Part shown: piece after piece, positions 6,521 to 63,378 of the stretch
Position numbering within the stretch: position 1 is the stretch's first letter
Layout: every line of letters starts with the position of its first letter
Assembly: GCA_007922195.1 (NCBI GenBank)
Contig: ML681996.1
Span: 18,777,218 to 18,841,217, forward strand
Reading direction: 5' to 3'
DNA from: Podocnemis expansa
Taxonomy: Eukaryota > Chordata > Testudines > Podocnemididae
DNA: 64,000 nt
Made by a program: the position numbers and the translations under genes
The notes under the pieces: model-generated
What the model saw: the letters and a program-made list of their open reading frames with translations, nothing else
Database searches by the model: none
Told to the model about the DNA's origin: nothing

Positions 6521-7217
6521 GGGTGTGTTCACACGGCACTTTTGTTTCGAAACAACCTCGTTGTTTCGAAACAAAAAAANNNNNNNNNNNNNNNNNNNNN
6601 NNNNNNNNNNNNNNNNNNNNNNNNNNNNNNNNNNNNNNNNNNNNNNNNNNNNNNNNNNNNNNNNNNNNNNNNNNNNNNNNNNNNNNNNNNNNNNNNNNNN
6701 NNNNNNNNNNNNNNNNNNNNNNNNNNNNNNNNNNNNNNNNNNNNNNNNNNNNNNNNNNNNNNNNNNNNNNNNNNNNNNNNNNNNNNNNNNNNNNNNNNNN
6801 NNNNNNNNNNNNNNNNNNNNNNNNNNNNNNNNNNNNNNNNNNNNNNNNNNNNNNNNNNNNNNNNNNNNNNNNNNNNNNNNNNNNNNNNNNNNNNNNNNNN
6901 NNNNNNNNNNNNNNNNNNNNNNNNNNNNNNNNNNNNNNNNNNNNNNNNNNNNNNNNNNNNNNNNNNNNNNNNNNNNNNNTGCTGGTGCCTGCAGCCCCCT
7001 TTCTGGGGCTGCAGGGTGAGCCAGCAGCGGCTCACCCCCAGGGGTAACGAAATAGCATGTTCACACAGTGAACTTGCTATTTCGTTTCCCGCTTTTTTTC
7101 TTATTTCGAATTAACATTTTGTTAATTCGAAATAAGATATTTCGAAATAAGGTGTTTCGAAACAAGTTGTTTTGACACAACTTGTTTCGAAATAACCCTG
7201 TGCGTGTGAACACAGCC
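6521..7217. mobile_element. Non-autonomous HarbA Harbinger element with assembly gap
   Basis: Terminal inverted repeats GGGTGTGTTCACAC (6521) and GTGTGAACACAGCC (ending 7217), flanked by ATA on both sides (6518-6520 and 7218-7220), a 3-bp duplication as in PIF/Harbinger. The arms are rich in the palindrome TTTCGAAA and relatives (6546-6575, 7110-7195). The right arm contains the block 'CGAAATAGCATGTTCACAC' at 7048, also seen in the right arms of the other HarbA copies. The core after the gap is GC-rich (TGCCTGCAGCCCCC). There is no coding capacity outside the gap. It is inserted in the antisense CR1. Confidence 0.85.
6580..6979. other. Assembly gap, 400 N
   Basis: Exactly 400 unknown bases. 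The same length as the gap at 50930-51329, so probably a default gap size rather than a measured one. Open frames running through the N block are artefacts. Confidence 0.99.
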
Positions 7218-14431: not shown

Positions 14432-14849
14432 GGCTATGTCTACACTACAGGGCTCAGTTAAGCCGGCTAAATAAAGTCTGCTTAAAGTAGACTTTATTAA
14501 GCCATCTTACCACGTCCACACTCAAAATGCCAGGAGACTGCCCACGTCCACACTGGCAGCTGCTAGGTCACCCTAGGAGTGGTGCATTGTGGGTATCTGG
14601 CCCACCCACAGTGCACCACAGCAGAGGAGCCCCTCTCTTCTGGCCATTCCTTTATTACAGGAAGTGAGTGACCACACCACCTTCTGTACTGTGTGTGGCA
14701 ACAGGGAGCCCAGGGAGGCGAGACAGCCTGATGTAGCCCAGCGATGTGCCAGCACAGCACTCCACATCCTCCCTGTGTTGCCCAGACTTCTCTGGCTCTG
14801 GAACAGGTGCTAAAGGGCAACTGCCAGTGCAGGGGCAGGGCGCAGCAGT

Positions 14850-15236
14850 AGTTAAGACTTAAACACAAGGAAACAGCAAATAGAAGAAGGTGAAGTCAAA
14901 TCACCTGTCATAATGGGGAAAAAAATCCTTAGTCAGGGTTTAATCCTGCTTTCACACAATCTAATCTAAAAGGAATAGCAACTTTCTTTCTTTCCTTCTT
15001 TCCATGTGTTATTTCCCAGTGTTTGAATCTTAACAACTGCTTTGAATTGCTGTTAGAGTGTGACCTGATCCTATGTCTTACACTCCCCTGCATTTATTTC
15101 CTACCATTCTGTAAATTCTACCATCTTCAAACTGTCTGATGAAGTGGTATTTTTCTCCCATGAAAGCTCATCCAATAAATAAATTTGTTAGTCTTAAACA
15201 GTGCCTCTGGACTCCTTGTTTATTTTACAACAATAT
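14850..15236 (+). mobile_element. Penelope tail captured inside HarbB copy 1
   Basis: Sense tail: TTTGAATCTTAACAACTGCT, then ACACTCCCCTGCATTTATTT, CTGTCTGATGAAGTGG, CATGAAAGCTCATCCAATAA and TGGACTCCTTGTTTATTTTA. The first about 130 bp read in antisense (GTCAAATCACCTG), as in free Penelope copies. It ends ACAACAATATCAG instead of the normal tip GACTAACATGGCTACCCC, the same boundary as in the other two HarbB copies. Confidence 0.75.
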
Positions 15237-15239
15237 CAG

Positions 15240-15660
15240 TGGGGGTCCTTTGAGAAGGGGAGACATACAGGGTTCGTCGGAGAAGGGGAGAGACAGGCAG
15301 GGTCAGGCTGAAAAGGGCAAGGGGGAGACAGGGGTTTGGGCAGAGAAGGGGGAGACACCCAAAGTCCGGCAGAGAAGGGCAAGGGGGGAGACCCATAAGT
15401 TTGGGCAGAGAAGGGGGACACACCGAGGATTGGGCTGAGAAGAGGAAGGGGAGACACACAGGTTTGGGCAGAGAAGGAGTGAGACAGGCAGGGTCGGGCA
15501 AAGAACGGGGGAGATGTGGGAATCGGCTAAGAACAGGGGAGACGTGCGGGGTCGGGCTGAGAATGGGGGACACATGTAGGGCGGGCAAAGAACAGGAGAG
15601 ACATACAGAATGGGCTGAGAATGGGGGAAATGCTGGGTCAGGCTGTGATGCCCAGTCTGG
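15240..15660. repeat. HarbB minisatellite, about 25-35 bp purine-rich unit
   Basis: Imperfect tandem units of the form GGGCAGAGAAGGGGGAGACA / GGGCTGAGAATGGGGGA. The complementary pyrimidine version (CAGCCCGACCCTGCATCTCT) occurs at the matching place in the other two HarbB copies. The open frames across it on both strands are products of the repeat. Confidence 0.85.
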
Positions 15661-16005
15661 CTCAGAACGGAGGAGATCAGTCAGGGAACATGGGGCGTTT
15701 GGCTGTGGTTCACACAGCTGAGAACGCTCCCAGTTGCATTGCGTCTTCTATCCAGCCTCCATCCCCATGTTTTCTGTGGCTGGGAGGCCAATTAAGTCGA
15801 CTTAAGGCAACTTCCGCTCCACATTGCCTTAAGTTGACTTAATAAAGTCGACTTAACTGTAAAGTCGACTTTATAATCGGAAGTAATAAAGTCGACTTTA
15901 ACTGATGCTAAAGTCGACTTTATAGCCCTGCAATGTAGACAGGGGTTTGTTTAAGTCAACTTAACGGCCCTTAAGTTGACTTAAACACACAATGTAGACA
16001 TACCC

Positions 16006-17656: not shown

Positions 17657-17815
17657 GGGTATGTCCACACAGGCTTCTTATTTCGAAACAACAGAGGTTT
17701 TTTCGAAATAAGAAGTAGCATGTCCACACGACGCACTGTTATTTCAAAACCGTTAAACCTCGCATCAAATCGAAATGGGTTATTTCGAAATAATGATGTA
17801 TATGTGGACATAGCC
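17657..17815. mobile_element. HarbA-type MITE, 159 bp
   Basis: Termini GGGTATGTCCACACAGGCTT and ATATGTGGACATAGCC, flanked by TAT on both sides (17654-17656 and 17816-17818). The interior is a shortened HarbA arm (TTATTTCGAAACAACAGAGG, TTTTTTCGAAATAAGAAGTA) plus a right arm with TTATTTCGAAATAA. Non-coding, probably an internal deletion derivative of HarbA. Confidence 0.85.
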
Positions 17816-23727: not shown

Positions 23728-24740
23728 ATCATAGAATCATAGAATCATAGGGTTGGAAGGGACCCCACGAGGTCATCTAGTCCAACCCCCTGCCAAAAAA
23801 AGCAGGCCCACTCCCATTAGATCATCCCAGTCAGGGTTTTGTCCAGCTGGGACTTGAACACCTCCAGAGATGGAGATTCCACCACCTCCCTAGGCAACTT
23901 ATTCCAATGCTTCACCACTCGCCTAGTAAGGAAGTTTTTCCTAATATCCAGCCTGGACCGCCCCAGCTGTAACTTGAAACCATTGCTTCTCGTTCTGCCC
24001 TCTGTTACTACCGAGAACAGTCGAGCTCCCTCCTCCTTGGAGCAACCCTTCAAGTAGTTGAAGGTTGCTATCAAATCCCCCCTCAGTCTTCTCTTCTGCA
24101 GGCTAAATAAGCCTAGTTCCTTCAGTCTTTCTTCATAGGGCTTGTGCTCCAGCCCTTTGATCATTTTGGTTGCCCTCCTCTGGACTCTCTCTAATTTGTC
24201 CATGTCCTTTTTGTAGTGGGGAGCCCAAAACTGGACACAGTATTCCAGATGTGGCCTCACTAGTGCAGAATAGAGGGGAATGATCACATCCCTTGATCTG
24301 CTGGTAACACTTCTTCTGATGCAGCCCAGTATGCCATTGGCCTTTTTGGCAGCAAGAGCACACTGCTGACTCATATCCAGCTTCCCATCCACCATGACTC
24401 CCAGGTCCTTTTCTCCAGTGCTGCTATTTAGCCGATCACTCCCCAGCCTGTAGCAGTACATGGGGTTTTTTCGTCCCAAGTGCAGGATTTTACACTTCAA
24501 TCTGAGATTCCTCTTGGCCCACTGCTCCAGTTTGTCTAGGTCTCCCTGAATCCTGTCTCTGCCCTCTAGGGTGTCTACTGTTCCCCCCAGTTTGGTATCA
24601 TCTGCAAACTTACTAAGTGTGCAATCTATCCCATCATCCAGATCATTAATGAAAACATTGAACAGAACTGGCCCCAGGACCGACCCCTGGGGCACACCAC
24701 TCGTTACTGCAGCCCTGTCATTTAGATCATTCAAAGGTAA
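23728..24740 (-). mobile_element. Young 5'-truncated CR1 (3' 1 kb)
   Basis: On the minus strand this is the last kilobase of CR1 ending in the microsatellite (CTATGATTCTATGATTCTAT, plus-strand 23731-23751) and the 3' stem. It is the least mutated CR1 in the window, with the ORF2 C-terminus still open. 5' truncation is normal for CR1 copies. The preceding boundary near 24740 is where CR1 similarity stops. Confidence 0.92.
23817..24728 (-). pseudogene. CR1 ORF2 C-terminal fragment (reverse transcriptase)
   Basis: An uninterrupted frame of about 300 CR1 codons (321 including upstream non-CR1 codons). In order: [20 protein letters not shown] (RT block 4), then [11 protein letters not shown] with the catalytic FADD in the place of YxDD, the [13 protein letters not shown] block, [51 protein letters not shown], and a C-terminal [19 protein letters not shown]. 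The endonuclease and the N-terminal RT palm/fingers are missing, so it cannot be functional. A few residues are deleted before CKILHLG compared with CR1 in birds and other reptiles. The start codon shown by a simple ORF search (24780-24782) lies outside CR1 and is not a real start. CR1 proteins normally copy their own RNA by target-primed reverse transcription. Confidence 0.9.
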
Positions 24741-26006
24741 GCAATGTGAGGTAACATAAAAGTTTCCCTTACCTCTAAACACACAGAAATAATTGTATGG
24801 TGTAAAATCAAACTGGAAAAAAAGTCAGAAAAAGAAGTTTCTTCACTTCTAATTTTTAGTGTATTAGTTTATGGCATATGAAGAAAAGATAATTTACTGA
24901 GTAACAATATTAGAGTTTGCAATATTCATGTAGTTTAGATACTATAGTTGTAGATGCCTCCTAAATGTGGATAGATTATAGTCAGTTAGAGAGACCTATA
25001 TTTGCTTCTCTTATTGCTAACTACTAAATCATGTAGAATCATATATTGCTTTGCATCTTCCAAAACAAATCTGGGAAAGAAAATAATTTACCATTGACAT
25101 CACACAATAAATGTACTCAGAAAGATGTTTAAAATACACTGAAATATAAAAACATAGTGACAGATATTTGTCAAAGGTATAGTACTCTGTGGTTTTTAAT
25201 ATATTTAATAAATGTTGCATTTTAAATCAACAAATAAGCAGCGATGTCACTGTTCATCTCTAAATAAAGTAATATGGTCACCACTTAAGTTTAAATAAGC
25301 ATATAAACCAAACACACACATAAAATCTCTTACAAAATATCTTTCAGGAACATCCCAGAGACAGTAAATACCATCCAGTATAGAAGGTAAATGAGCCAAA
25401 TCTTTGGGGGATGTTTCCAAAAGATAGGCACTTTATCTTCCAAAAACCTTAATTCAGGGACTGTCGAAAATGTGCTGCCAAACCATATATAAAACTCTGC
25501 AATACATTGTAAAACTTGCTCATTCTTTTTCCTTCCCCAGCTGAATTTCCTCATTAACCAATTCATTAGCTCTTGCCTTGAGCAATACTAATTAATTCTA
25601 ATTTTTAAAAAATTAATATTATAAATGAATCATCAACATTTGTATACCGTGACCAAGACACCCAGGGGATTAATCTTGTGACAAATACACAGTTTCTTTT
25701 TTTCTTTTCCCATCCCTTTGTTTTTGTCTTTACTCACCAACCAGTTTCAGTTCTTCAGAGAAGGGACCATTTATTTTACCTTCCTGTAGAGTACAGTTAG
25801 ACCATCACATAAGTCTATACTTCTCAACTTTTTCAATATTAAACCCAAATTTCAAGTACCAGGATTCATTTTCATTTAGTAGAGATCCAGACAAGACCCT
25901 CGTCTCCAATACCAACATGGGAAAGTCAGTTGATCACAACCACATGACATAAGTTTGCAATCATGCTGGCATCACAACCCCCAGATTAACATTTGATGAT
26001 ACAAAT
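24741..26006. other. Unassigned A/T-rich sequence
   Basis: About 1.27 kb without a recognised gene or repeat; short chance ORFs only. Confidence 0.4.
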
Positions 26007-26999
26007 AGTATTGTGACAGGCTGCTCCCCAGATCCAGTCTGGTATCCCACTGTGACCTCCCAGGCCCCACTCCTAAACCCCGATTCACTCCTCTTTGCCA
26101 AGTGACCACTCACTCCCAGGTCAGTCCACTCTGGCCTCTGATGTGCAACTGGCCCCAAGCAGTGGGTATATGCCCTTTGCCTACTCAAGGGATGGTCCCC
26201 CAGCAAGCACCTCCAGCTTCAGACACCATCCTGGGAGCCACTGTCCACATAAATAGCGGGGCCCACTCCCAATCGCCATACACTCTTGTTCTTCCATTTA
26301 ACGAAGAAATGGATTGTGCCCAGCCCTCTTCACTCACCCCCTCTAAAGACCACACAGCTTCAAATCAAACAACTACTAGTTAATTGATCAGATTAGAATT
26401 CTAAGTGAGAATGTGGCCAACCATTGCAGAAACACAATACAAATGAGTCAGGAGAGACCACAAAGAAATAAAAGGTAAGACACACATACTAACCTTATAT
26501 CTCTACTCAGACTGACCTCACAGTCCAAAATTTATGCTCAAGGTGTTTGGCTGTCAGATGTTGCACAGCCAATCTCTGCCTGAGGCAGGCAGGGCCCACA
26601 TCTTGCTTGAAGCTGTTTCAAAATTGAGATTCCCAAGCCAAAAGCTCCAAATCCCTCCAAGTGTCTTTCTTTGTTCCAAAACTTGCTCTGATCCCTCCCT
26701 TTCTGGGCAGACATGATCTCTTTGGCTATGTCTACACTGGGGTTTTAAGTTGACTTAAATAAAGATCAGGCCACACAACAAGTTAACAAAACCGACTTTC
26801 CCCATCGCTAAAATCGGCTTTATAACTTGAACTCAGAAAGTTGACTTAAGGCAATATGGCCAGGGAGCTGCCTTAAGTCAACTTAATTGGCCTCCTAACT
26901 ACAGAAGACATGGGGATGGGGGATGGAGAGAAGGCACAACACAGCTAGGAGCATTCCCAGCTGTGAGCACTGCATCCAAATTTCCCATGTTCCCTGACT

Positions 27000-27690
27000 G
27001 ATCCAGCATCTTTCTGCCTTCTCAACCCAACCAGGCATCTCTCTGATTCCCTGGCCGACCCGGCATCTCTCTTGTTCTCAGCCTCTCCCCGCATCTCCTC
27101 CACTTCTCAGCCCAACCCCACATTTCCTCCCATTCTCATCCAGACTACGCATCTTCAGCCGACCCTGCATCTGCCCCACTTCTCAGCCCCCCCACATCTC
27201 TCGCCATTCTCCAGTCTGACTCATCATCTCTCCCATTCTCAGCCTCACCCTGCACGTCTTCCATTCTCAGCCCAGTCCAGCATCTCCCCCCATTCTCACT
27301 CCAACTCCACACCTCAACCCAACTTGGCATCTCCCCGCATTCTTAGCCCAGCCCTGCATCTCAGCCCGACCCAGCATCTCAGCCCAACCTGGCCTCTCTC
27401 CATCTTCTCAGCCCAACCCGGCATCTCTTGCCATTCTTAGCCTGAACCAGCATCTCTGCCATTCTCAGCCCGACCCCACATTTCTCACCATGCTCCAGCC
27501 TGACCCCACCACCTCTCCTGTTCACAGCCAGAACCCGCATGTCTCCCATTCTCAGCCTAATCCTGTGTGTCTCTCCCCTTCTCTGCCCAAAACCATGTGT
27601 CTCCCCCCTTGGCATTCTCAACCTGACCCTGCCTGTCTCTCCCTCTCTTCACCCAACCCTGTGTGTCTCTCCTTCTCAGAAGACCCCCCT
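27000..27690. repeat. HarbB minisatellite (pyrimidine strand)
   Basis: Roughly 25 imperfect units such as CAGCCCAACCCGGCATCTCT and CTCCCATTCTCAGCC. The open frames in it are repetitive (Leu/Pro/Ser-rich) and not genes. Confidence 0.85.
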
Positions 27691-27699
27691 GATATTGTT

Positions 27700-28075
27700 G
27701 TAAAACAAACAAGGAGTCCAGAGGCATTGTTTAAGACTAAAAAAAATATTGGATGAGCTTTCATGGGAGAACATCCCACTTTGTCAGACAGTTTGAAGAT
27801 GGGGGAACTTACAGAATTGTAGGAAATAAATGCAGGGGAATATAAGACAGAGGATTAAGTCACACTCTAAGCAAATCAAAGCAGTTATTAACATTCGAAC
27901 ACTGGGGAACACCACATAGAAAGAAACAAAGAACGAAAGATGCTATTTCTTTTAGATTAGATTGTGTGAAAGCAGAATTAAATCTTGACTATGGATTTTT
28001 TTTCCCCATTAAAACAGGTGATTTGACTTCACCTTCTTCCATGTGCTGTGTCCCGGGATTTGAGTCTTAACAACT
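27700..28075 (-). mobile_element. Penelope tail captured inside HarbB copy 2
   Basis: GTTGTAAAACAAACAAGGAG, TGGATGAGCTTTCATGGGAG, CATCCCACTTTGTCAGACAG, AATAAATGCAGGGGAATATA, then the inverted piece AAACAGGTGATTTGACTTCA. It begins at CCTGATATTGTTG, the same junction as in HarbB copies 1 and 3. Confidence 0.75.
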
Positions 28076-28959
28076 GCTGCACCCTGCCCCTGCATTGGCA
28101 GTTTCCCTGTTGGACCTGGTCCAGAGCCAGAGGAATCTCGGCAATACAGGAAGGGTGTGGAAAGCTGTGCTGGCACATCACTGAGCTACATCAGGCTCTC
28201 TGACCTCCCTGGGCTCCCTGTTGCCACACATAGTATGGAGGGTAGCGTTGTCACTCGTTTCCTGTAGTAAAGAGGTGGCTGGAAGAGAAGTGCACTTCTG
28301 TTGTGGTGCACTGTGGGCCAGCTACCCACAATGCACCACTCCTACGGCAACCTAGCAGCTGCCAGTGTGGACATGGGCAGTCTTTTGGCATTTTAAGTGT
28401 GGACATGCTAAGCTGACTTAATAAGGTCTACTTCAAGCCAGCTTAAAGTAGACTTTATTAAACTGGCTTAACTGAGCCCTGTAGTGTAGGCATAGCCTTT
28501 GTCTAGCCAGAGCCAGGGAACTCAATTACTATATCTTTGCTGCCTCCTCCAGGCACTTGCTTGCTGCTGGGAGAAAACTCTGTATGTCTCCCACCCCCTT
28601 GAGCCATGCTAAACATGCTACACATCTGAGCACACGCATAAAAAGTTGTAGGAAACATGATATCATACTGCTCATGAAGAATAAGTTATGAGGACCCCTA
28701 ACAAAACTTTGAATGGTGTAATTGGCCTAAAAACATACAATTTCAGTGTATAAGTGAACAGAAAAATCATACAGATCATAACCCAGGCTGCACAGATGTG
28801 ACAAATATTAATTAGAAGAAAAGTTAGAACAGGAAAGGATATGGCATTATCTAGATTACCAAGTACTATTAAACCATTTTAAAGTCATGATTGAATTGCT
28901 TTCCCTTTCATTTTTAATGTGCTTTCCTTCTGTCCATTAGCCAAAGTTTGTGTGAAAGG

Positions 28960-31369: not shown

Positions 31370-31776
31370 ATGGGGTATGTCTACACAGGGTTCTTATTTT
31401 GAAACAACCTCTGTGGTTTCGAAATAAGAAGTGCCATGGCCACACGACGCATGGCCATTTCGAAAGAAGCAAACCGCTTCTTTCGAAATGGCCGTGCTCC
31501 TTTCGAAATAAGTTAAACCTCGTTGCCTGTCGAAAGAGCGTTGTTTCGAAACGGTTGTTTCGAAACAACGCCAAAGAGACATGCCGTTTCAAAATAACGG
31601 TTATTTTGAAATGAGTTGTTTCAAAATAACCGTTATAATGGTCGTGTTATTTTGAAACAACAGTTGTTTCGAAATAACTGGCTGACCTTCCTCCCAGGGT
31701 GCACAGCGCCCTGGGGGAAGTCCCTGCCTGGGTTTGCCTGTGAGGCAACGTGGCAGGGAGGGCTGACACAGGCAGC

Positions 31777-33818
31777 ATGGCCCAGCAGCCATACCCCGCA
31801 GCTGCCACATGCAGGAGGGCTCCTGTGTGGACGCAGGAGGACGTGCAGTGCCTCCTGGACATCTGGCAGCAGCCAGACATCCTTCAGCGGTTCCGGGCCA
31901 GCCACCGGAACGGCGATCTATATAGTGACATCGCAGATGTGATGTCCCAAGGAAGGCACCCCCGGAGCACTGAACAGGTGCGGAGCAAGATAAAAACACT
32001 CCGGCAGGAGTATGCCTGCACCCGGGATGCCTGGGCACTGCAGGGGCCTGGCAGCCAGGCCACCTGCCCGTATTTTGAGGCCCTGGATGCCTTCCTGGGC
32101 ACACAGCCCAGCGGTGCCCCCGCTGCGGCCATGGACACCTCCGGGGGGCCTCAGAGCCCCTCGTCAGCCCGGAGGCAGCCGCCTCCGACATCTCCATTGG
32201 GGGACCTCGAGCCGCAGCACCACCAGTGGCGGAGGCCAGCCCCACGACCCCAGAGCTGTTCCTGGCCATGGAGGCGGAGAGCAGCGTGGAGGAGCAGGGG
32301 CCCGCCACCGCCCCAGGCTCCGACTCAGATCCCGGGACATCTCGGCGGACCTCCGGAGCCCCCGTGGGTAAGTATGCCCCCCCCCATCGAGGTACACAGG
32401 GCTGGGCCTTTCCATCAGGTCCCGGGACGGGTAGAGGCCAGGGCCGGGCACCGGGGCGGGTAGGGCCCAGGATTCATGGGCTCAGAGGGGCCCCCTGGGC
32501 ACGGGTCCCACGGACACAGGTGGCACCACGGTCAAAGGCCCCTGTGTGCCGGGGGGTGGTGACCAGGGACTGGCTGGGAAAGATGCAGCAGCATCTTGGG
32601 TGGGGTGGAGAGCAGGCAGGGCACACCACTGGCCAGTGGTCTCAGGAGACCTCCAAGGGCAAGGTGTGGCTGGGTCCAGTTCACCCTTGTGGGCACCATG
32701 AGCATGTGTGCCTCCAGGGTACGGGTCCCAGATGTCTGGCAAAAGGAGACCATGGTCTCCTTTCTTCTGCTCTGTTCTTCTTTTTATCCTCCCATTCTCT
32801 GTCTGGCAGGCAGGTCAAAATACAGGGGTTTGTCAGGCTTTTTCCCAGAGGGGCTGAAGGATCCTGGACTGCCAAAAAATACCGATGTATATGGGAAAGT
32901 GTCCCAGGGCCCCTTAAACCCTGATGACTACCTCGGCCAGACAACCTTCTTGCCCAGGGTCCTCCAATGTCCTCCATCGGGTACCGTCCCAGCCTCCTTC
33001 CGAGGCTTTGGGGGCCAGGAGCCCTACCCCAGGGCAATGTCCCATGGGATCCTGGGACCCACTGACAGTCAGGGAACAGGCGTGTGCTGCAGACAGGTGC
33101 ACACAGATGGGACCAGCAGGTGGCAGAGGCTAATTGTGTTTTTTGCGTCCCTGCAGCACGTCGCAGAGCCCCTCCGCAAGGGCCGGCACCCACACCCGGA
33201 CCCTACCGCCCAAGCCCCAGGACACCGCGGCGACGGCGGAGGGCCCCCAGGACCTGCACTGAGCTCCTGGAGAGCCTGGAGGAGCTCGGGGAGACCATGC
33301 ACACTGCCACCCAGGCCTGGAGGCGGGAGCAGGCGCAGCGGCAGGCAGCTGGGCTCCGTTCCCTGGAGCAGCTCGCAGGCGCCGAGGACAGGGCGGCGAG
33401 GGCACTGGAGGTCCTGGCAGTGGAGCTGCCAGCTGCTATTCTGCAGCAGGCTGCAGCCATCCACCAGCTAGCAGAGGGCCTGGTTCCCCGACGGTGCCGG
33501 GAGACATCACCGCCCCAGGAAGGACAGCGGGCAGAGGGCAGCCGTGGGCGCAGGCGGGGCATGCCACCCCCCCGGACCCTCCCACAGGCGTTGCCTAACC
33601 CTCCCCGCCCCAGGACCTCTTCACCCCTGTCCCCTCCCAAGTTCATGTTCCCTCCCCAAGTCCCCTCCCAAGTTCATGTTCCCTCCCCAAGTCCCCTCCC
33701 ANNNNNNNNNNTTCATGTTCCCTCCCCAAGTCCCCTCCCAAGTTCATGTTCCCTCCCCCAGACCCCCCCAGATTGCCCCGTCCCGTATCGCCCCCATCCC
33801 TTCCCTTATTGTGAATAA
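31777..33818 (+). CDS. Harbinger MYB/SANT-like DNA-binding protein, two exons, one frameshift
   Basis: Second Harbinger protein; in this superfamily it binds DNA and assists the transposase. I start at ATG 31777 (A at -3, G at +4) because the MYB-like domain follows at residues 18-80: WTQEDVQCLLDIW, HRNGDLYSDIADVM, RSTEQVRSKIKTLRQEY, a Myb_DNA-bind_4 trihelix-type pattern. Exon 1 appears to run to 32367 at the donor GTAAGT; the acceptor is TTTTTTGCGTCCCTGCAG ending 33156. Joining them keeps frame (phase 1) into an Arg-rich stretch, then a likely coiled coil (ELLESLEELGETMH, RALEVLAVELPAAILQQ). Oddities: the reading frame shifts by one base in the G-run 32143-32148; the C-terminus crosses a 31-bp minisatellite with 10 N, so the 3' frame and stop (TAA 33816-33818) are provisional. 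The frameshift is either real decay or a homopolymer error. Confidence 0.75.
32368..33156 (+). other. Predicted intron of the HarbA MYB-like gene
   Basis: 789 bp from GTAAGT to a pyrimidine tract plus CAG. It separates the MYB domain exon from the coiled-coil exon. The open frames at 32226-32924 and 32596-33471 that run across it would be intron read-through. Predicted from splice consensus and frame continuity only. Confidence 0.55.
33640..33770. repeat. 31-bp minisatellite with assembly gap
   Basis: Four visible units of AGTTCATGTTCCCTCCCCAA + GTCCCCTCCCA (31 bp), interrupted by 10 N. Because 31 is not a multiple of 3, copy number changes the reading frame of the MYB-like protein. Confidence 0.9.
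33702..33711. other. Assembly gap, 10 N
   Basis: Ten unknown bases inside the minisatellite, most likely a collapsed tandem array of unknown true length. Confidence 0.99.
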
Positions 33819-33819
33819 A
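33814..33819 (+). terminator. Poly(A) signal of the MYB-like gene
   Basis: AATAAA in TTATTGTGAATAAACCC. The predicted stop codon TAA (33816-33818) lies inside the signal. Confidence 0.6.
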
Positions 33820-33851
33820 CCCCTGGAAAGTTATTCTTGGTTGTCTGTGTT

Positions 33852-33857
33852 TTTATT
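33852..33857 (-). terminator. Poly(A) signal of the transposase gene
   Basis: AATAAA on the minus strand (plus TTTATT in GTTTTTATTTGGGG), 93 bp downstream of the transposase stop codon and facing the MYB gene signal. Confidence 0.55.
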
Positions 33858-33949
33858 TGGGGGGGGGTTGGCAGTGTGGGTGGATGGGTGCAGGCTGGCT
33901 GTGGGTGGACAGGGGGAGATGGTGTTTTGGTGCAGGGCAGCCCTGGTCC

Positions 33950-35194
33950 TCAGTCTTCCTCCGCAGCGAAGGCGAGCCGGAGGGCATCGCGGATGGCGAG
34001 GGCTCGCGCAGATGGCTGCTCCCGAGTCGGCTGGGGTCTTGGTTGTTCATAGTCCCTGGCAAATGCTTGGACCTCAGCCTCCCATGCAAGTGGGATGGGT
34101 TCCCCCTGCTGCTCACAAAAGTTGTGGAGCACTGCACATGCCGCGATGACTTGTGGCAGGCTCCGCTCAGCGAGGTGGAGGCGAGTTAGCAGGCACCTCC
34201 ACCGGGCCTTGAGGCGTCCGAAGGTCCGCTCGACCACCTGTTGACAGTGGGCAAGGCGGCGATTGAACAGCTGCTGGCTGGGGTCGAGTGGCCCAGCGTA
34301 TGGGCGCATTAGCCAGGGCCGCAGGGGGTAGGCCGCGTCCGCCACTATGAGGATGGGCACCTCTACGCCCCCAAGGTGGATGGTGTGAGGGGGGAAATGG
34401 GTGCCCGCCTCCATGCCCTGGTACAGGGCGGAGTTGCGGAGGACCCTGGAGTCATGGGCCCTCCCTGGCCATCCCACGTAGCAGTCTTGGAACTGGCCCC
34501 GGTGGTCCACAAGGGCCTGCATAATGACTGAATGGTATCCCTTTCGATTGCAGTACACCGCAGCCCTGTGCTCCAGGGCGCGCACAGGGATGTGAGTGGT
34601 GTCCAAGATGCCAGCACAGTTTGGAAAGCCAAGGGTGGCCATCCCAGGCATGGTGTCCTACAGGTCCCTGCATCTCACCAGGCACTGTAGGAGGACGTGA
34701 TTGATGGCCCTAATGACCTCACGGAGGATGGTGCCGGTGGTGGACCTCCCGATGCCAAACAGGTGCGCCACTGCCCTGTGGGACTCCGAGGTGGCCATCT
34801 TCCACAGGGCGATGGCCACTCATTTGTCCACCGGGATGGCAGGCCTCATGGGGGTGTCCCTGTGCTGCAGGTGCGGGGCCAGTTCGCCCACCAAGCGGGT
34901 GAAGCTGGTCCTGCTCATACGGAAGTTCTGGCCCCAGAGGTCATTGCCCCAGGTGTGCAGAACGACCCTCTCCCACCAGTCGATGCTGGTCTGACGCGCC
35001 CAGATGCGGCGGGGCACGGGGTGGGGCAGGGGCAGTAGCTGAGCCCTACGGCTGAGCTGGATGTATTCCTCAGGTAGAGGCCAGTCCTCCTCGGGGTCTG
35101 CAAACAGAGTCTCCCACAAGTGCCGGAGACCCTGCATGCGCACCGAGGGGCTGGGTGCTGCACGGCGCTGTCTAGGCAGCCGAGCACTGTCCAT
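33950..35194 (-). pseudogene. PIF/Harbinger DDE transposase with two nonsense codons
   Basis: A single frame of 414 codons, usual Harbinger size, interrupted only by TGA at 34820-34822 (in a context suggesting CpG decay of an Arg codon) and TAG at 34658-34660. I start at ATG 35192-35194 (G at -3 and +4), though the frame is open up to 35356. N-terminal part: WWERVVLHTWG, RMSRTSFTRLVGELAPHL, RDTPMRPAIPVDK. Between the stops is a helix-turn-helix-like segment, SHRAVAHLFGIGRSTTGTI. After the second stop, 233 open codons hold the DDE_Tnp_4 catalytic domain: Asp17 in GILDTTHIPV, then GWPGRAHDSRVL, Asp105 in ILIVADAAYPL and Glu141 in VVERTFGRLKARWR (numbering from 34651), giving DD35E spacing. The protein cuts and pastes elements with these termini in the nucleus. 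As assembled it cannot be made in full length, except by readthrough. Confidence 0.93.
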
Positions 35195-35516
35195 GGCTTG
35201 CAGCGTGCTGCTAGCGTGGGTGGACAGGGAAGTGAGGTCAGGGCCGGCTTTTATGTGATTGGCTACCAACATGGCCGTCGACGTGGCCCAGGGAGGCGGC
35301 CATGTTGCCACACCTCCCATGCTGCACTGCCCCTGGGGTCGAAATAGCAAGTCCACACTATGGAAACGCTATTTCAATTCCCGTTTTCTGCTTATTTCGC
35401 GGACACCATTTTGTTATTTCGAAACAGGTTATTTTGAAATAACATGTTATATCGAAACAAGTTATTTCGAAATAACTTGTTTCGAAACAAGTGCTCCCCG
35501 TGTGAACATAGTCATG

Positions 35517-36899: not shown

Positions 36900-37482
36900 T
36901 AAAGAAGAACTATTATCCCTATTTTAAAAATGAAGCACTCAGGGTATGTCTACAATGGATCTTTAAGTTGACTCAAGTAGGCTTAAGTCAACTTAAGCAA
37001 CTCCATGGCCACATTTAGCATTTATTAAATCGATTTAAGCACTTGCTTAATTCAATTTAATAACTCTCATTCTTAAAGTCAACATTAAGGTTTAAGTCAA
37101 CTTTATTAAGTCGACTTAACAAAATGTGGCCATTAAAGTTGACTTATAAGTCGACCTAAGGCAGCATAGCCATTTAATTTGACTTTATAAAGTCAACTTA
37201 AGCCAGGGGACCCATTTAAAGTCAACTTTATCAATAAATAATTAAGTTGAATTTATATGGGTTCCCTGGCTTAAGTTGACTTTAAAAAATCAACTTAAAC
37301 AAATGGGGCCTCTCAAAGTTGACTTAATAAAGCCTATTTTAAGTTGACCTTGTTAAGTCAACTTACCTGAACCCTCTAGTGTAGACATAGTCTAAGCGCT
37401 TAGCACAAGGTCATGCAGCAAGTCTGTGGTTTAAAATGGACTTCTACACACATCATATTAGTCCCAAAGTAGAGCCCTGCTT
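36900..37482 (-). mobile_element. MIR SINE (antisense), split by a MITE
   Basis: Left part CTATTATCCCTATTTTAAAAATG and right part TTAGCACAAGGTCATGCAGC + AAGTCTGTGG follow the complement of MIR (TATTATCCCCATTTTACAGATG ... CAAGGTCACACAGC). The intervening 36942-37392 is a Harbinger-type MITE. Confidence 0.65.
36942..37392. mobile_element. HarbB-type MITE, 451 bp
   Basis: Ends GGGTATGTCTACAATGG and TAGTGTAGACATAGTC, with flanks TCA and TAA (an imperfect 3-bp duplication). The interior is almost entirely TTAAGTCGACTTAA-like palindromes (TTAAGTTGACTCAAG, TTAAGTCAACTTAA, AAAGTTGACTTATAAGTCGA), more than a dozen copies. It lacks the Penelope tail and minisatellite of the long HarbB copies. Confidence 0.85.
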
Positions 37483-41698: not shown

Positions 41699-42334
41699 GG
41701 TTATTGAAGGGTGCAGGGTGAGACATCCTGGTTGTGGCCACCCCGCTGGGGGCTACAGCCCCCCAAGCTGGTGGCGGGGTGATCCGCATGGCTTCTAGCC
41801 GCTGCCACAGCTGAGCCCGGGGGCCTGGGGAGCTGGTGGGACCCAGCTCCCCGCAGCAGCAGCCGCTCAGCCCCCGGGGTGCTGGGGAGCTGGGTCAGGA
41901 CCGGAGCAGCCCCAGTGGTGGGGAGAGCCAGGCACCCCTGCACCCCACCACCTCCAAAGGGTGCAGCCTGCCGCAGCTGCGGCTCACTCCGCCAGCGCTG
42001 CAGCCCAGGGGACCTGGGAATGGGATGAGCCACCACAGCTGTGACCACACCATACCCCTTGCAGCTTCCTTGACCTGGGCGGGGGATCCTGGGGGTGCTG
42101 GGGCTCCTGGCAAGCCCTCTCCCCCACTCCGCTCTGGTTGGGTGCCCCTCTCCTGAAGCGAAAGAGCAGGTCCATACATAGGACCTGCTCTTTTGCTTTC
42201 AGGGTCTCCCTTATTTTGAACTAATTTTTTTTTTTTAGTTCAGAATAAGTTGTTTCAAAATAAAGGTTTTATTTCAAAATAAGTCATTTCGGAATGACTT
42301 ATTTCAAAATAAAGCCTTGTTTGTAGACATAGCC
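41699..42334. mobile_element. Non-autonomous HarbA element with eroded left end
   Basis: The right arm (42110-42334) is clearly HarbA: GAAAGAGCAGGTCCATACAT, TTATTTCAAAATAAGTCATTT, GTAGACATAGCC, followed by TAA. The left boundary is taken at 41699 because TAA precedes it (41696-41698) and the first bases GGTTAT resemble GGCTAT, but the rest of the left arm is missing. The GC-rich core (41740-42110) resembles the core of the copy at 50319. The matching CpG sites of its TTTCGAAA palindromes have mostly decayed to TTTCAAAA. Confidence 0.75.
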
Positions 42335-44219: not shown

Positions 44220-45630
44220 AAGTGGGTAATTTATCCTGGGCAGGAGAAATGTTTGTTGACATAAAGATAGCAAAGCTGGGTCTTATGTTTGTTGCCAACC
44301 ACCTCTGAAGGAGGTGAAGCCAAAAATTACCAGTAAATATAAAACCCAAGATGAGGTATTAGTAGGTGTCTCATACAGACCACAAACTCATAGCAGAAAC
44401 AGGATGACAGGAGCCTTATGAATTTATCTATAATATGGGGGAGCAGTTTGAACATGAAGGGCTTCAATCTGAGTTACTTATACTGAATGTCTCATATTCC
44501 CAGTCCTAAAGTAGCCCTGAAATTTCTAAATATTATTGATGACAATTTCTTAACTCAAATTGTTGTGGCCAATAGGGGGGAATTGTTTACTGGATTTTTT
44601 CTTAACAGTTAATGAGGCATGGATCACAGGATAACCATTAATGGTAGCTTAGACATAAAGTGATCATGACTTAATTACTATGACAGTCAACAGTAGGTGT
44701 ACCTGCACTGTGATCTCTTGATAGACACTGGATAAATGCCTATAAACAGGGGAATTTCAAGTAGTAGAAAAAGTCATTTTACTTCTATGTTTGGCATCAT
44801 TACTGAAATATTGTATCCAGTTATGGTGCCCACAATTCAAGAAGGATATTTCATAGTTGGAAAGGGTTTAGAGAAGAGTTACAAGAGTAGTTAAGGGATT
44901 ATAAAACATATCTTATAGGATAGACTTACATAATATATGATATAGGATTGACTCACTGCCATCAGACACCCACAGATGAACCATGTCAACTAACTGGTTC
45001 ACAAGGCTTGGGCTAAGAGGTTGTTTACATGAAATGTAGATGTTTGGGCTCAAGCTGCAAACAAAGCTTTAGGACTCTCTGATCATACAGAATCTTAGAA
45101 CTCTGGACCAGCCTATGACTAGACATCTGCAGCACAATTAAACAGCTCATTAGCCCAAGTCTGAGAAATCTGAGCCAATTGGCATGGATCAGCTATTGAA
45201 TTTTAAATTGCAGTGTAGACATACCCAAACAGCTCAATCTATTTGTCTTAAAGAAAAGTGTAAGGGGTGACTTTGTTATAATGTATAAGCATCTATTTTG
45301 GGAGCAAATATTTAATAATGGGCTCTTCAGTCTAGTACAGATAGGTATAACACAGTCCAGTGGCTGGGATTTTAAATTAGACAAATTCTAGACTGTAAAT
45401 AAGGCATTAATCTTTGACAGGGAGGGTAAATAACCATTGGAACAATTTAACAAGCATTATGTTGATTCTTCTGCACTGACAATTTTTAAATGAAGATTGG
45501 ATTTGTTTTTTCTTTAAAAAAATCAGCTTTAGTAATTATTTGGGGGAAGTTCTATAGCCGAGTGTTCAAGAGGTCAGAACCGATGTTCACAATGATCCCT
45601 TCTTATCTTGAAATCTCTGAATCCATGAAA
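44220..45630 (+). mobile_element. CR1 relic (sense) with endonuclease remnant, internally deleted
   Basis: The 5' part (about 44260-44660) translates to endonuclease-domain text such as LVGVSYRPQT followed by a line equivalent to NxLVxxxTRG. The sequence then jumps to the ORF2 C-terminus (44790-44930, 45227-45480; GTATCCAGTTATGGTGCCCA, TTAGAGAAGAGTTACAAGAG) and the 3' UTR (TTCACAATGATCCCTTCTTA, ending near 45630). The RT core is missing, so this is a deleted old copy. A palindromic MITE lies inside it. Confidence 0.7.
44930..45226. mobile_element. Palindromic Harbinger-type MITE in CR1
   Basis: The right half ends AATTGCAGTGTAGACATACCC; the arms are inverted copies (left TTGGGCTAAGAGGTTGTTTA, right TAAACAGCTCATTAGCCCAA). 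The left terminus is degraded, so the start is approximate. Same family as 22747-23044. Confidence 0.75.
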
Positions 45631-50318: not shown

Positions 50319-51661
50319 GGGTATGTCTACACAGGGTTCTTATTTCGAAACAACAGAGGTTGTTTCGAAATAAGAAGTGGCATGGCCACACAACGCACGG
50401 CCATTTCGAAAGAAGCAAACCGCTTCTTTCGAAATGGCCGTGCTGCTTTCGAAACAACCTAAACCTAGTTGGCTGTCGAAACAGGGTTGTTTCGAAACCA
50501 GAGGTTTCGAAACAGCCCTGTTCGGACATGTTGTTTCGGAACAAAGTGTTCCGAAACAACATGTCACCTTCCTCCCAGGGTGCTAAGCACCCTGGGAGGA
50601 AGGGCAGCCCCCCCTCAGCACCCTGGCCAAGGTGCTGAGGGGTGTCCGCGGGGAGAGGGGGGCGCGGAGCTGCGCTGCACGCCGCCGGTGCCTGAAGGGG
50701 ACTGCAGACACCGTGCCTCACCTGGCGGGTGCCTGCAGCCCCCTGCAAGCACCCGCCAGGAGAGGGCAGCGGGGCACTTCACCCCAGGGGCTTTAAAGCC
50801 CCTGCTGCCCCCCAACCTGGAGGCGCGGCCCCAGCGCACGGCTGCAGCCCGCCGCTGCCGGGGCCGGAGTAAGCGTGGGCCGGAATCCCCGGCCTGACGC
50901 GCCGGCAGGGGGCGTGTCGGGGCATCCCTNNNNNNNNNNNNNNNNNNNNNNNNNNNNNNNNNNNNNNNNNNNNNNNNNNNNNNNNNNNNNNNNNNNNNNN
51001 NNNNNNNNNNNNNNNNNNNNNNNNNNNNNNNNNNNNNNNNNNNNNNNNNNNNNNNNNNNNNNNNNNNNNNNNNNNNNNNNNNNNNNNNNNNNNNNNNNNN
51101 NNNNNNNNNNNNNNNNNNNNNNNNNNNNNNNNNNNNNNNNNNNNNNNNNNNNNNNNNNNNNNNNNNNNNNNNNNNNNNNNNNNNNNNNNNNNNNNNNNNN
51201 NNNNNNNNNNNNNNNNNNNNNNNNNNNNNNNNNNNNNNNNNNNNNNNNNNNNNNNNNNNNNNNNNNNNNNNNNNNNNNNNNNNNNNNNNNNNNNNNNNNN
51301 NNNNNNNNNNNNNNNNNNNNNNNNNNNNNGCACCCGCCAGCTGAGGCGCGGTGCCTGCAGTCCCTTGCAGGTACTGGCGGAGTGAGGCGCAGCCCTGCGC
51401 CTGACTCCGCCGGTGCCTGCAGCCCTCTGCAGGCACCCATGGGATGCAGTGCCCCTCTGCACTGCACCCTGTGGGTGCCTGCAGTCCCCTCCCCAGGCGA
51501 AATAGCAGGTCCACACTGTGGACCTGCTATTTCACTCCCTTATTTCACGGACATGGTTTTTCTCCAGCGAAATAAGTTGTTTCGAAATAACATATTATTT
51601 CGAAACAGCTTGTTTCGAAACGTGTTGTTTCGAAACAAGCACTCCCCGTGTAGACATAGCC
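50319..51661. mobile_element. Non-autonomous HarbA element, 1.34 kb, with assembly gap
   Basis: Ends GGGTATGTCTACACAGGGTT and GTGTAGACATAGCC, flanked by TTA on both sides (50316-50318 and 51662-51664). The left arm matches the autonomous copy nearly base for base for about 130 bp (CGGCCATTTCGAAAGAAGCA, ACCGCTTCTTTCGAAATGGC). The right arm matches through CGAAATAGCAGGTCCACACT and TTGTTTCGAAACAAGCACTC. The core is GC-rich with repeated CCTGCAG/GCACCCGCCAG phrases. No transposase or MYB sequence outside the gap. Confidence 0.9.
50930..51329. other. Assembly gap, 400 N
   Basis: Exactly 400 unknown bases in the GC-rich core of a HarbA element. The several long frames that span it are artefacts. 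Confidence 0.99.
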
Positions 51662-61347: not shown

Positions 61348-61659
61348 ATTAGGTATGTCTACACTATGGGTTTAAGCAGACTTAAAGCCCCTTAAGTCGA
61401 CTTAAACAAAGCCCTGCCCACACTGAGAAGGTATTAAGTCAATTTAAGTGTTTGCTTAAGTCAGCTTAATAACTCTCACTCGTAAAGTCAACTTAGCAGT
61501 TAAGTTGACTTTACTATGTCAATTTAAGCCAATGTAGCATGGGAGTTGGCTTAAGTCAATTTAATTGGCCTCCTAGCTATCTGAAACATGGGTATTTGTG
61601 CTGGAGAAAAGGCACAACACAGATGGGAGCATTCCAAGCTGGGTGTAACACATCAAACC

Positions 61660-62110
61660 CCTCCCTGTCTTAGCCCCAGCCCCTCAGCCCACGTCGCCCT
61701 CCCCCAACCTGATCTGGCATCTCTCCCCATCTCAGCCTGACCCTGTATCAATCCCCTTCTCAGCCCGACCCCACATGTGTCCCCTTTCTTCAGCCCAACC
61801 GTGCATCTCTCCCCCATCAGCCTGACCCCGCATCTCCCCCCTCTCAGCACAACTCTGCGTGTCTCCCTTTCTCAGCCAAACCCCATGTGTCCGCTCTTCT
61901 CCAGCCCAACCCTCCTTGTCTTTCCCAATACCCTTCTCCAGCCCAACCCTGCGTGTCTCTTCCTTTGCCCTTCTCCAGCCAGATCCCCTGTGTTGCTCCC
62001 CTTGCACTTCTCCAGCTTGAACTTGCATGTCTCCCCTTCTTCAGCCAGCCACCATGTGTCTCCCCTTCTCGTCCTGACCCTGCATGTCTCTCTCCCCTTC
62101 TCAGCCCAGC
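61660..62110. repeat. HarbB minisatellite (pyrimidine strand)
   Basis: Tandem units like CAGCCCGACCCCACATGTGT and CTTCTCCAGCCCAACCCTGC, about 30 bp each. Open frames here are repeat-derived. Confidence 0.85.
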
Positions 62111-62124
62111 CTCCCTGATATTGT

Positions 62125-62515
62125 TGTAAAACAAGCAATACGCCCTGTGGCACTTTTTAAGGCTAACAAACTTATTGATTGAATGAGCTTTCATGGGAGA
62201 AAATCCCACTTCTCCAGATCATTTGAAGATGGAGGAACTCACAGAATGGGAGGAAAATAAATGCAGGGGAATGTAAGACATAGGATCAGGTCACACTGTA
62301 ACAGCCAATCAAGCCAGTTGTTAAGATTCAAAAACTAGGAAACAGCACAAGAAAGAAAGAAAAAGAAAAATTGCTATTCCTTTAGATTAGATTGTGTGAA
62401 AGCAAAATATAATCATGGCTATGGATTCTTTTTCCCATTACAACAGGTGATTTGACTTCACCTTCCTCTATGTGCTGTTTCCCAGTGTTTGAATCGTAAC
62501 AACTGCTACACCCGG
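62125..62515 (-). mobile_element. Penelope tail captured inside HarbB copy 3
   Basis: ATATTGTTGTAAAACAAGCA, GAATGAGCTTTCATGGGAG, AATAAATGCAGGGGAATGTA, then the inverted piece CAACAGGTGATTTGACTTCA. Same left junction (CTGATATTGTTG) as copies 1 and 2. Confidence 0.75.
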
Positions 62516-62530
62516 CACCTGCACTAGTAG

Positions 62531-62994
62531 CAGGGGCATCACTGTGCGGGGGCCAGCAGTGCATGGGCCCTTAATTTCTGGCCAATGGTACAGCCAGAAG
62601 GTGCTTGATCCAGCTCTGGGCCACTTGGGGCAAGCAGTGGAGGCTCAGAGACAGATCCTGCCCCTTGCCAGCAGCAGCAGGGGCCCAATCCAGCTTCAAG
62701 CCTCCTGCAAGAGGCTTGGAGTCAGAGATGGTCCCTGCCATCTTTCACAAGTGGCAGAAGCCATCTTCGATTGGCAGCCACTCAGAAATGGCTATTGCTG
62801 CTTATAAAAAGTGGCATGGACTGTCTCCAGCTCCATGCCTCTTGCAAGAGGCTTGAAGTCAGATTGAGCCCCTGCTGCTGCTGGCAAGCGGCAGTGGTTG
62901 GATTGGGCCCTGGAGAAGGTTCAGGGCCATGTGTGGAGGGGTGGATCCTGGGTCTTTAACCCCTCCCCCCCAGTAACATCCCTATCTGGCAGTT
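62531..62994. mobile_element. hAT-like element nested in HarbB copy 3
   Basis: Ends CAGGGGCATCACTGTGCGGG and (minus strand) TAGGGATGTTACTGGGGGGG. Absent from HarbB copies 1 and 2 at the same site. Flanks ACTAGTAG and TCTGGCAG agree at 5 of 8, and both are derivable from the uninterrupted sequence. The interior has repeated GCCTCTTGCAAGAGGCTT-like hairpins. Non-coding. Confidence 0.65.
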
Positions 62995-63378
62995 GTCCTG
63001 TGGCAGCTGGTCCAGAGCCGGAGAAGTCTGACCAGTACATGGAGGGTTAGGAGTGCTGTGCTGACACACTGCTGGGCCATGTCGGGCTCCCTGACCTTCC
63101 TGGGCTCCCTGTTGCCACACAGAGTATGAAAGGTGGTGTGGTCACTCACTTACTGTAGTAAAGGAGTGGCCGGAAAAGAGGGGCACCTCTGTTGTGGTGC
63201 ACTGTGGACCAGCTACCCACAATGCATCACTCCTAGGGTGACTTAGCAGCTTCCACTGTGGATGTGGGCAAGTTTCCTGGCATTCTGAGTGTGGACACTG
63301 TAAGCCAACTTAATAAGGTCTACTTTAAGCCATCTTTATTAAAGTAGCTTAATGAAGCCCTGTAGTGTAGGCATACCG

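Follow-up and report, generated by a model that had tools for sequence, protein, structure and literature searches.

A Harbinger-type DNA transposon of 4,141 bp, complete end to end, is found at positions 31373-35513 of a 64,000-nucleotide stretch of the genome of the turtle Podocnemis expansa (contig ML681996.1, positions 18,777,218 to 18,841,217 of the forward strand; this whole stretch is termed the window, and coordinates refer to it). The element contains a convergent gene pair, a spliced Myb/SANT gene on the forward strand and a single-exon DD35E transposase gene on the reverse strand, and is flanked by a perfect 3-bp target-site duplication (TSD), the target in full being CAC-ATG-GAG. 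It is very probably a once-autonomous cut-and-paste transposon of the Harbinger type (PHIS superfamily) that inserted into this target and both genes of which are now inactivated; it belongs, as a fairly young member, to a class already known. Its features, including the terminal inverted repeats (TIRs), are as follows.

31370-31372: left copy of the TSD, ATG, read from the sequence with the ends paired
31373-31390, forward: left TIR, with the tip GGGTATGTCTACAC
31394-31678: left subterminal array of 12 TTTCGAAA-type palindromes, putative Myb-binding sites
31777-32367, forward: exon 1 of the Myb/SANT gene, with Myb_DNA-bind_4; the frame changes in the G-run 32143-32148
32368-33156, forward: intron of the Myb/SANT gene, GTAAGT...CTGCAG, predicted from the sequence only
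33157-33818, forward: exon 2 of the Myb/SANT gene, including a 10-N gap, with a terminal TAA that overlaps the AATAAA at 33814-33819
33629-33770: 31-bp tandem array in exon 2, with the 10-N gap (33702-33711) within it
33852-33857, reverse: AATAAA of the transposase gene
33950-35194, reverse: transposase gene, one exon of 415 codons counting the stop, read from 35194 to 33950
33950-34651, reverse: catalytic DDE_Tnp_4 domain
34601-34603, 34337-34339 and 34229-34231, reverse: triad codons for Asp, Asp and Glu
35413-35492: right subterminal array of four TTTCGAAA-type cores in steps of about 15 bp
35496-35513, reverse: right TIR, placed by eye, with four mismatches in 14 bases to the left tip
35514-35516: right copy of the TSD, ATG, read from the sequence with the ends paired

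The two genes and their lesions

The transposase frame is interrupted by two in-frame stop codons, TGA at 34820-34822 and TAG at 34658-34660. When it is read through, the DDE_Tnp_4 domain is detected against Pfam with an E value of 1.4e-38, and the triad is formed by D198, D286 and E322 (read-through numbering), the second Asp and the Glu being separated by 35 residues, in agreement with the DD35E assignment given in a preliminary description of this DNA. In an alignment of 40 of the 238 related proteins, the triad columns are occupied by D in 37, D in 36 and E in 34 of the 40 rows. Comparison with solved structures by sequence gives two matches, the better with an E value of 0.014 and neither to a transposase, and a Foldseek search of the PDB gives 198 matches at E <= 10 and none at E <= 0.001.

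The Myb/SANT gene matches Myb_DNA-bind_4 with an E value of 2.1e-16 (1.4e-16 in a second scan; Pfam). When the reading is continued past the G-run, the frame reaches the donor site G|GTAAGT after 32367, and the phase is kept at the acceptor site CTGCAG before 33157, so that the splice sites, previously called plausible, are in phase with each other. A search for homologues, with a query that began in exon 1 and extended beyond both the frame change and the splice donor, gives a single match among 1,294 candidates, a Pelodiscus protein that is 46% identical in the alignment. The AATAAA signals of the two genes are convergent and 32 bases apart. A perfect 22-bp palindrome with the centre CCATGG is located at 32742-32763 inside the intron.

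The two stops and the frame change are found exactly where the preliminary description had placed them. Its count of only three lesions agrees with what is seen, but is a minimum, because the 10-N assembly gap, which that description leaves unmentioned, sits in exon 2 of the Myb/SANT gene. An active autonomous element has both genes intact; this copy, with two stops and a frame change, does not.

Termini, subterminal palindromes and target sites

Both termini and the perfect ATG duplication are present as had been described. The TIRs are imperfect, their tips GGGTATGTCTACACAGGG and GACTATGTTCACACGGGG being identical at 13 of the first 20 bases when compared without gaps, and the unoccupied form of the target site would be CACATGGAG. 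When up to three mismatches are allowed, the window contains 19 occurrences of GGGTATGTCTACAC where 3.8 are expected; none of 100 shuffles reaches this number, and the tip is not a chance word. A misplaced boundary as the source of the ATG core is ruled out, because the same boundary yields perfect duplications in other elements. The left end gives no exact match to viral contigs. A lone perfect tip is present at 45213-45226 on the reverse strand; it lacks the C at four bases out, and no partner of it is found.

The arrays of TTTCGAAA-type palindromes are stacked just within both ends. In the rest of the window intact TTTCGAAA does not occur, and its TG and CA forms occur six and ten times respectively. 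The tips and the TTTCGAAA array are common to the focal element and three short elements in the window.

6521-7217, forward: copy A, non-autonomous, TSD ATA, with a 400-N gap at 6580-6979
17657-17815, forward: copy C, 159 bp, resembling a miniature inverted-repeat transposable element, TSD TAT
50319-51661, forward: copy G, non-autonomous, TSD TTA, with a 400-N gap at 50930-51329

The similarity of these copies to the focal element is limited to the regions near the ends: with G the identity is 89% for the first 196 bp and 74% for the right end, with A it is 76% for the right end, and with C it is 82% for the first 93 bp. Neither Myb nor transposase genes are found in the sequence present of the three copies, the 400-N gaps leaving the interiors of A and G partly known. 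A one-ended relative at 42190-42334 contains three TTTCGAAA-type cores, all in the TG/CA form, and C|TTA at its end.

The Myb-like protein of Harbinger3 is reported to bind a 9-bp subterminal motif (PMC9710019), and for this reason the TTTCGAAA array is proposed as the likely docking site of the Myb/SANT protein and A, C and G are proposed to be mobilised in trans. In a working element, the Myb/SANT protein would bind the palindromes and recruit the DD35E transposase to the GGGTATGTCTACAC tips; the transposase would excise the element and insert it at a 3-bp staggered break, giving rise to the 3-bp duplication. We infer that transposases of the focal kind, supplied from elsewhere, probably mobilised A, C and G.

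Four further elements in the window form a second, visibly older set.

14432-16005: element B
26724-28497: element D
36942-37392: element E
61351-63378: element H

The tips of these elements are of the GGSTATGTCTACAC type, as in the focal element, but their subterminal repeat is of the TTAAGTTGACTTAA type. B, D and H contain an internal minisatellite of about 28-30 bp of the TTCTCAGCCCAACCC type (other periods are also found), and their main matches to one another are 72-84% identical. The preliminary description had regarded the neighbouring repeats as wrecked; this does not apply to all of them, since A, C and G retain perfect 3-bp duplications. Elsewhere in the window, a 335-codon open frame at 23820-24824 on the reverse strand gives a partial match to the reverse transcriptase domain RVT_1 (E 1.4e-08), and resembles the end of a CR1-type long interspersed nuclear element.

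The target sites were compared among eight tip-paired elements (A, B, C, D, E, G, H and the focal element), which represent two families in one window; the right end was placed by eye in A and in the focal element. The 3-bp duplication is perfect in six of the eight (A ATA, B ATT, C TAT, D TTT, focal ATG and G TTA) and has one base mismatch in each of E and H. The flanks fit CWC...GWG at 35 of 48 positions (null mean 16.0; none of 100,000 draws as high), at 29 of 42 when the focal element is left out (null 14.0) and at 19 of 24 in the TTTCGAAA group alone (null 8.0), the latter two values likewise not being reached by draws, with the reservation that the motif was picked after the flanks had been counted and the tests are not independent of that choice. 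The focal CAC-ATG-GAG matches CWC|NNN|GWG completely, and H matches at two of the six flanking positions only. Of the 14 tips with up to two mismatches, 11 have a C four bases ahead of them, as do 14 of the 19 with up to three. The target of maize PIF has the letters CWCTTAGWG; literature searches on these letters and on PIF-Harbinger elements of softshell turtles give no papers. PIF and mPing are reported to have a 9-bp preference that consists of the TSD plus 3 bp on either side (PMC2836001), and a preference that reaches 3 bp beyond each side of the TSD is also observed here. Eight sites from two families in one window do not suffice for the definition of a new group.

Age of the copy and alternative explanations

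The ratio of observed to expected CpG is 0.50 in the focal element (0.53 in the transposase gene, 0.47-0.53 in coding sequence and 0.25 in the intron), as compared with 0.12 in the part of the window that lies outside the eight elements; in 15 control windows, which are GC-rich (52% or more) and half-overlapping, it is 0.03-0.37. When the element is divided into half-overlapping 500-bp windows, 11 of the 15 exceed the control range. The two stops correspond to about 0.047 neutral substitutions per site (95% range 0.006-0.17; about 42 stops expected per unit), if decay is assumed to be neutral, with a transition bias of 3. At columns conserved in all other compared groups, the focal transposase is changed at 7 of 59, a number that may include a stop column, and eight squamate proteins are changed at 6-9 of 66. 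By the same measure the values in turtles are 8 of 60 for a Carettochelys copy, 2-9 of 58 for a group of six and 0-3 of 52 for a group of seventeen, and those outside these turtle and squamate groups are 17 of 83 and 25 of 83 for two fish and 11 of 52 for a gecko, the row of which was excluded from the column definition. This count is preferred to an earlier one, in which 113 columns are conserved in 90% or more of 35 sequences and the focal sequence departs from 15 of them, because the earlier count is biased against the focal sequence, which is absent from its column definition. These comparisons support the interpretation that constraint on the conserved sites of the transposase was maintained to about the same degree as in its squamate relatives. 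We infer that the focal copy is younger than its surroundings but not fresh, and three measures agree on this.

The family may alternatively be long dead, the focal copy being old and seemingly intact because its GC-rich coding sequence gained few stops. Several results favour this alternative. The upper bound of neutral decay is as high as 0.17 per site, the TIRs agree at only 13 of 20 bases, the TpG/CpA excess in the element is 1.35, the CpG ratio of the intron is low, and four of the 15 element windows (intron, tandem array and one in the transposase gene) are inside the control range. The branch of the focal transposase in the tree is 0.85 long, although it is flagged as uncertain by the tree program. 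Six of the 16 focal TTTCGAAA-type cores are in the TG/CA form, as compared with none of 11 in G, none of five in A and one of four in C; the p value for the focal element against A and G together is 0.018, or 0.17 when the cluster at 31587-31650 is treated as inherited variation. These cores weigh against extreme youth, and the focal copy is not clearly the freshest in the window. Death of the family long ago is nevertheless rather unlikely, considering that the coding CpG ratio is well above the maximum of 0.37 in the GC-rich controls, that the changes at conserved sites are no worse than in the squamate relatives, that the duplication is perfect, and that the visibly older B, D, E and H have CpG ratios of 0.16-0.31. 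The long branch is read here as probably reflecting mainly divergence under constraint, not decay. The recent activity suggested in the preliminary description is supported in part: the copy is fairly called recent relative to the local background, in accordance with the light damage and with the CpG ratio of 0.50 against 0.12 outside, but both genes are broken, decay is under way, and the nearby short relatives look at least as young.

It is improbable that the copy is intact and owes its stops and its frame change to errors of assembly or sequencing. The frame change of the Myb/SANT gene does lie in a homopolymer, a common place of error, and the 10-N gap lies in the tandem array of the same gene, but the two stops of the transposase gene are separate from each other and away from homopolymers and the tandem array, and signs of decay such as the TpG/CpA excess are independent of them. 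Domestication of the two genes as a host gene pair, for which the constraint at conserved sites and the co-domestication of both genes reported in insects (PMC9710019) could be cited, is extremely improbable, because both ends and the target duplication persist and both frames are broken. A once-autonomous transposon with two inactivated genes remains the best explanation of these results.

Relatives of the transposase and comparison with known systems

Of 7,996 scored candidates, 546 proteins match the read-through transposase at E <= 0.001. The protein searches covered candidates with 0.55-1.75 times the length of the query, and the matches listed were the best 120 (of 129 in one search and of 546 in the other), so that a closer fragment could lie outside them. 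Among the best 120 of 546, turtle proteins, mostly of about 400-430 amino acids, rank at the top and are followed by those of lizards and snakes. The nearest of the matches listed is a 300-amino-acid Pelodiscus protein, which is 55% identical over 269 residues and 62% identical to the catalytic piece. The transposases of Chelonoidis, Pangshura, Gopherus, Chrysemys, Caretta and other turtles share the domain and the triad with the focal one, but differ in having uninterrupted frames, as predicted proteins in which gene prediction may skip lesions, and are about 44-49% identical to it as full-length rows. No copy of the exact focal family is present among the listed matches from predicted protein sets, and the uninterrupted turtle relatives are sister families rather than copies of it. 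The intact sisters that the preliminary description supposed elsewhere in the genome may exist, a suggestion that draws its support only from these predicted relatives in other turtles. The focal transposase groups with Carettochelys and Pelodiscus copies in a 37-row tree, with a support of 98/98. By title, none of the papers retrieved on Harbinger elements or turtles concerns the focal family.

These results add a well-preserved two-gene Harbinger family, the anatomy of which suffices to predict the place of Myb binding and the target, and the focal element provides a starting query for the search for such elements that are still mobile in amniotes. A bolder proposal, which is unlikely, is that a turtle Harbinger lineage would read the flanks CWC...GWG instead of the core, would have a Myb protein that docks on the TTTCGAAA palindromes, and would still be fed by intact copies in this genome. 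If this is true, a naturally mobile two-gene Harbinger element would exist in an amniote. If the apparent pattern of a fixed flank with a loose 3-bp core is genome-wide, it would call into question the sorting of Harbinger relatives by core duplications alone. PHIS elements are reported to be absent in birds and mammals (PMC4482050).

The focal element has the features of the Harbinger/PHIS superfamily, which are a DDE_Tnp_4 domain with the D, D, E triad, short imperfect TIRs with a 3-bp TSD, and a Myb/SANT second gene, the last being reported for four of the six PHIS groups (PMC4482050). By strict TSD rules, it lies outside every group tested: the focal ATG departs from the TWA duplication of strict PIF/Harbinger elements, to which one of the six perfect cores (TTA of G) conforms, the ANT duplication of Pangu is not that of the focal element and fits one of the six perfect cores (ATT of B), and the C|TNA|G target reported to be favoured by NuwaII elements (PMC4482050) disagrees in the core, TNA being present in one of the six perfect cores, although the flanking C and G fit. 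Zebrafish Harbinger3 and rice Ping/mPing share with the focal element the DDE transposase and Myb-like genes, the 3-bp TSD, the 3-bp flank preference and the short non-autonomous partners (PMC2836001, PMC9710019), but five of the six perfect cores here are not TWA, and the subterminal motif is an array of TTTCGAAA palindromes. NuwaII of the PHIS superfamily, described from 12 host species of which one is a turtle, resembles the focal element in its GG-type tip, its Myb/SANT and DDE genes and the C and G around the core, and differs from it in its TNA cores (PMC4482050), the comparison being made by tip, genes and target only.

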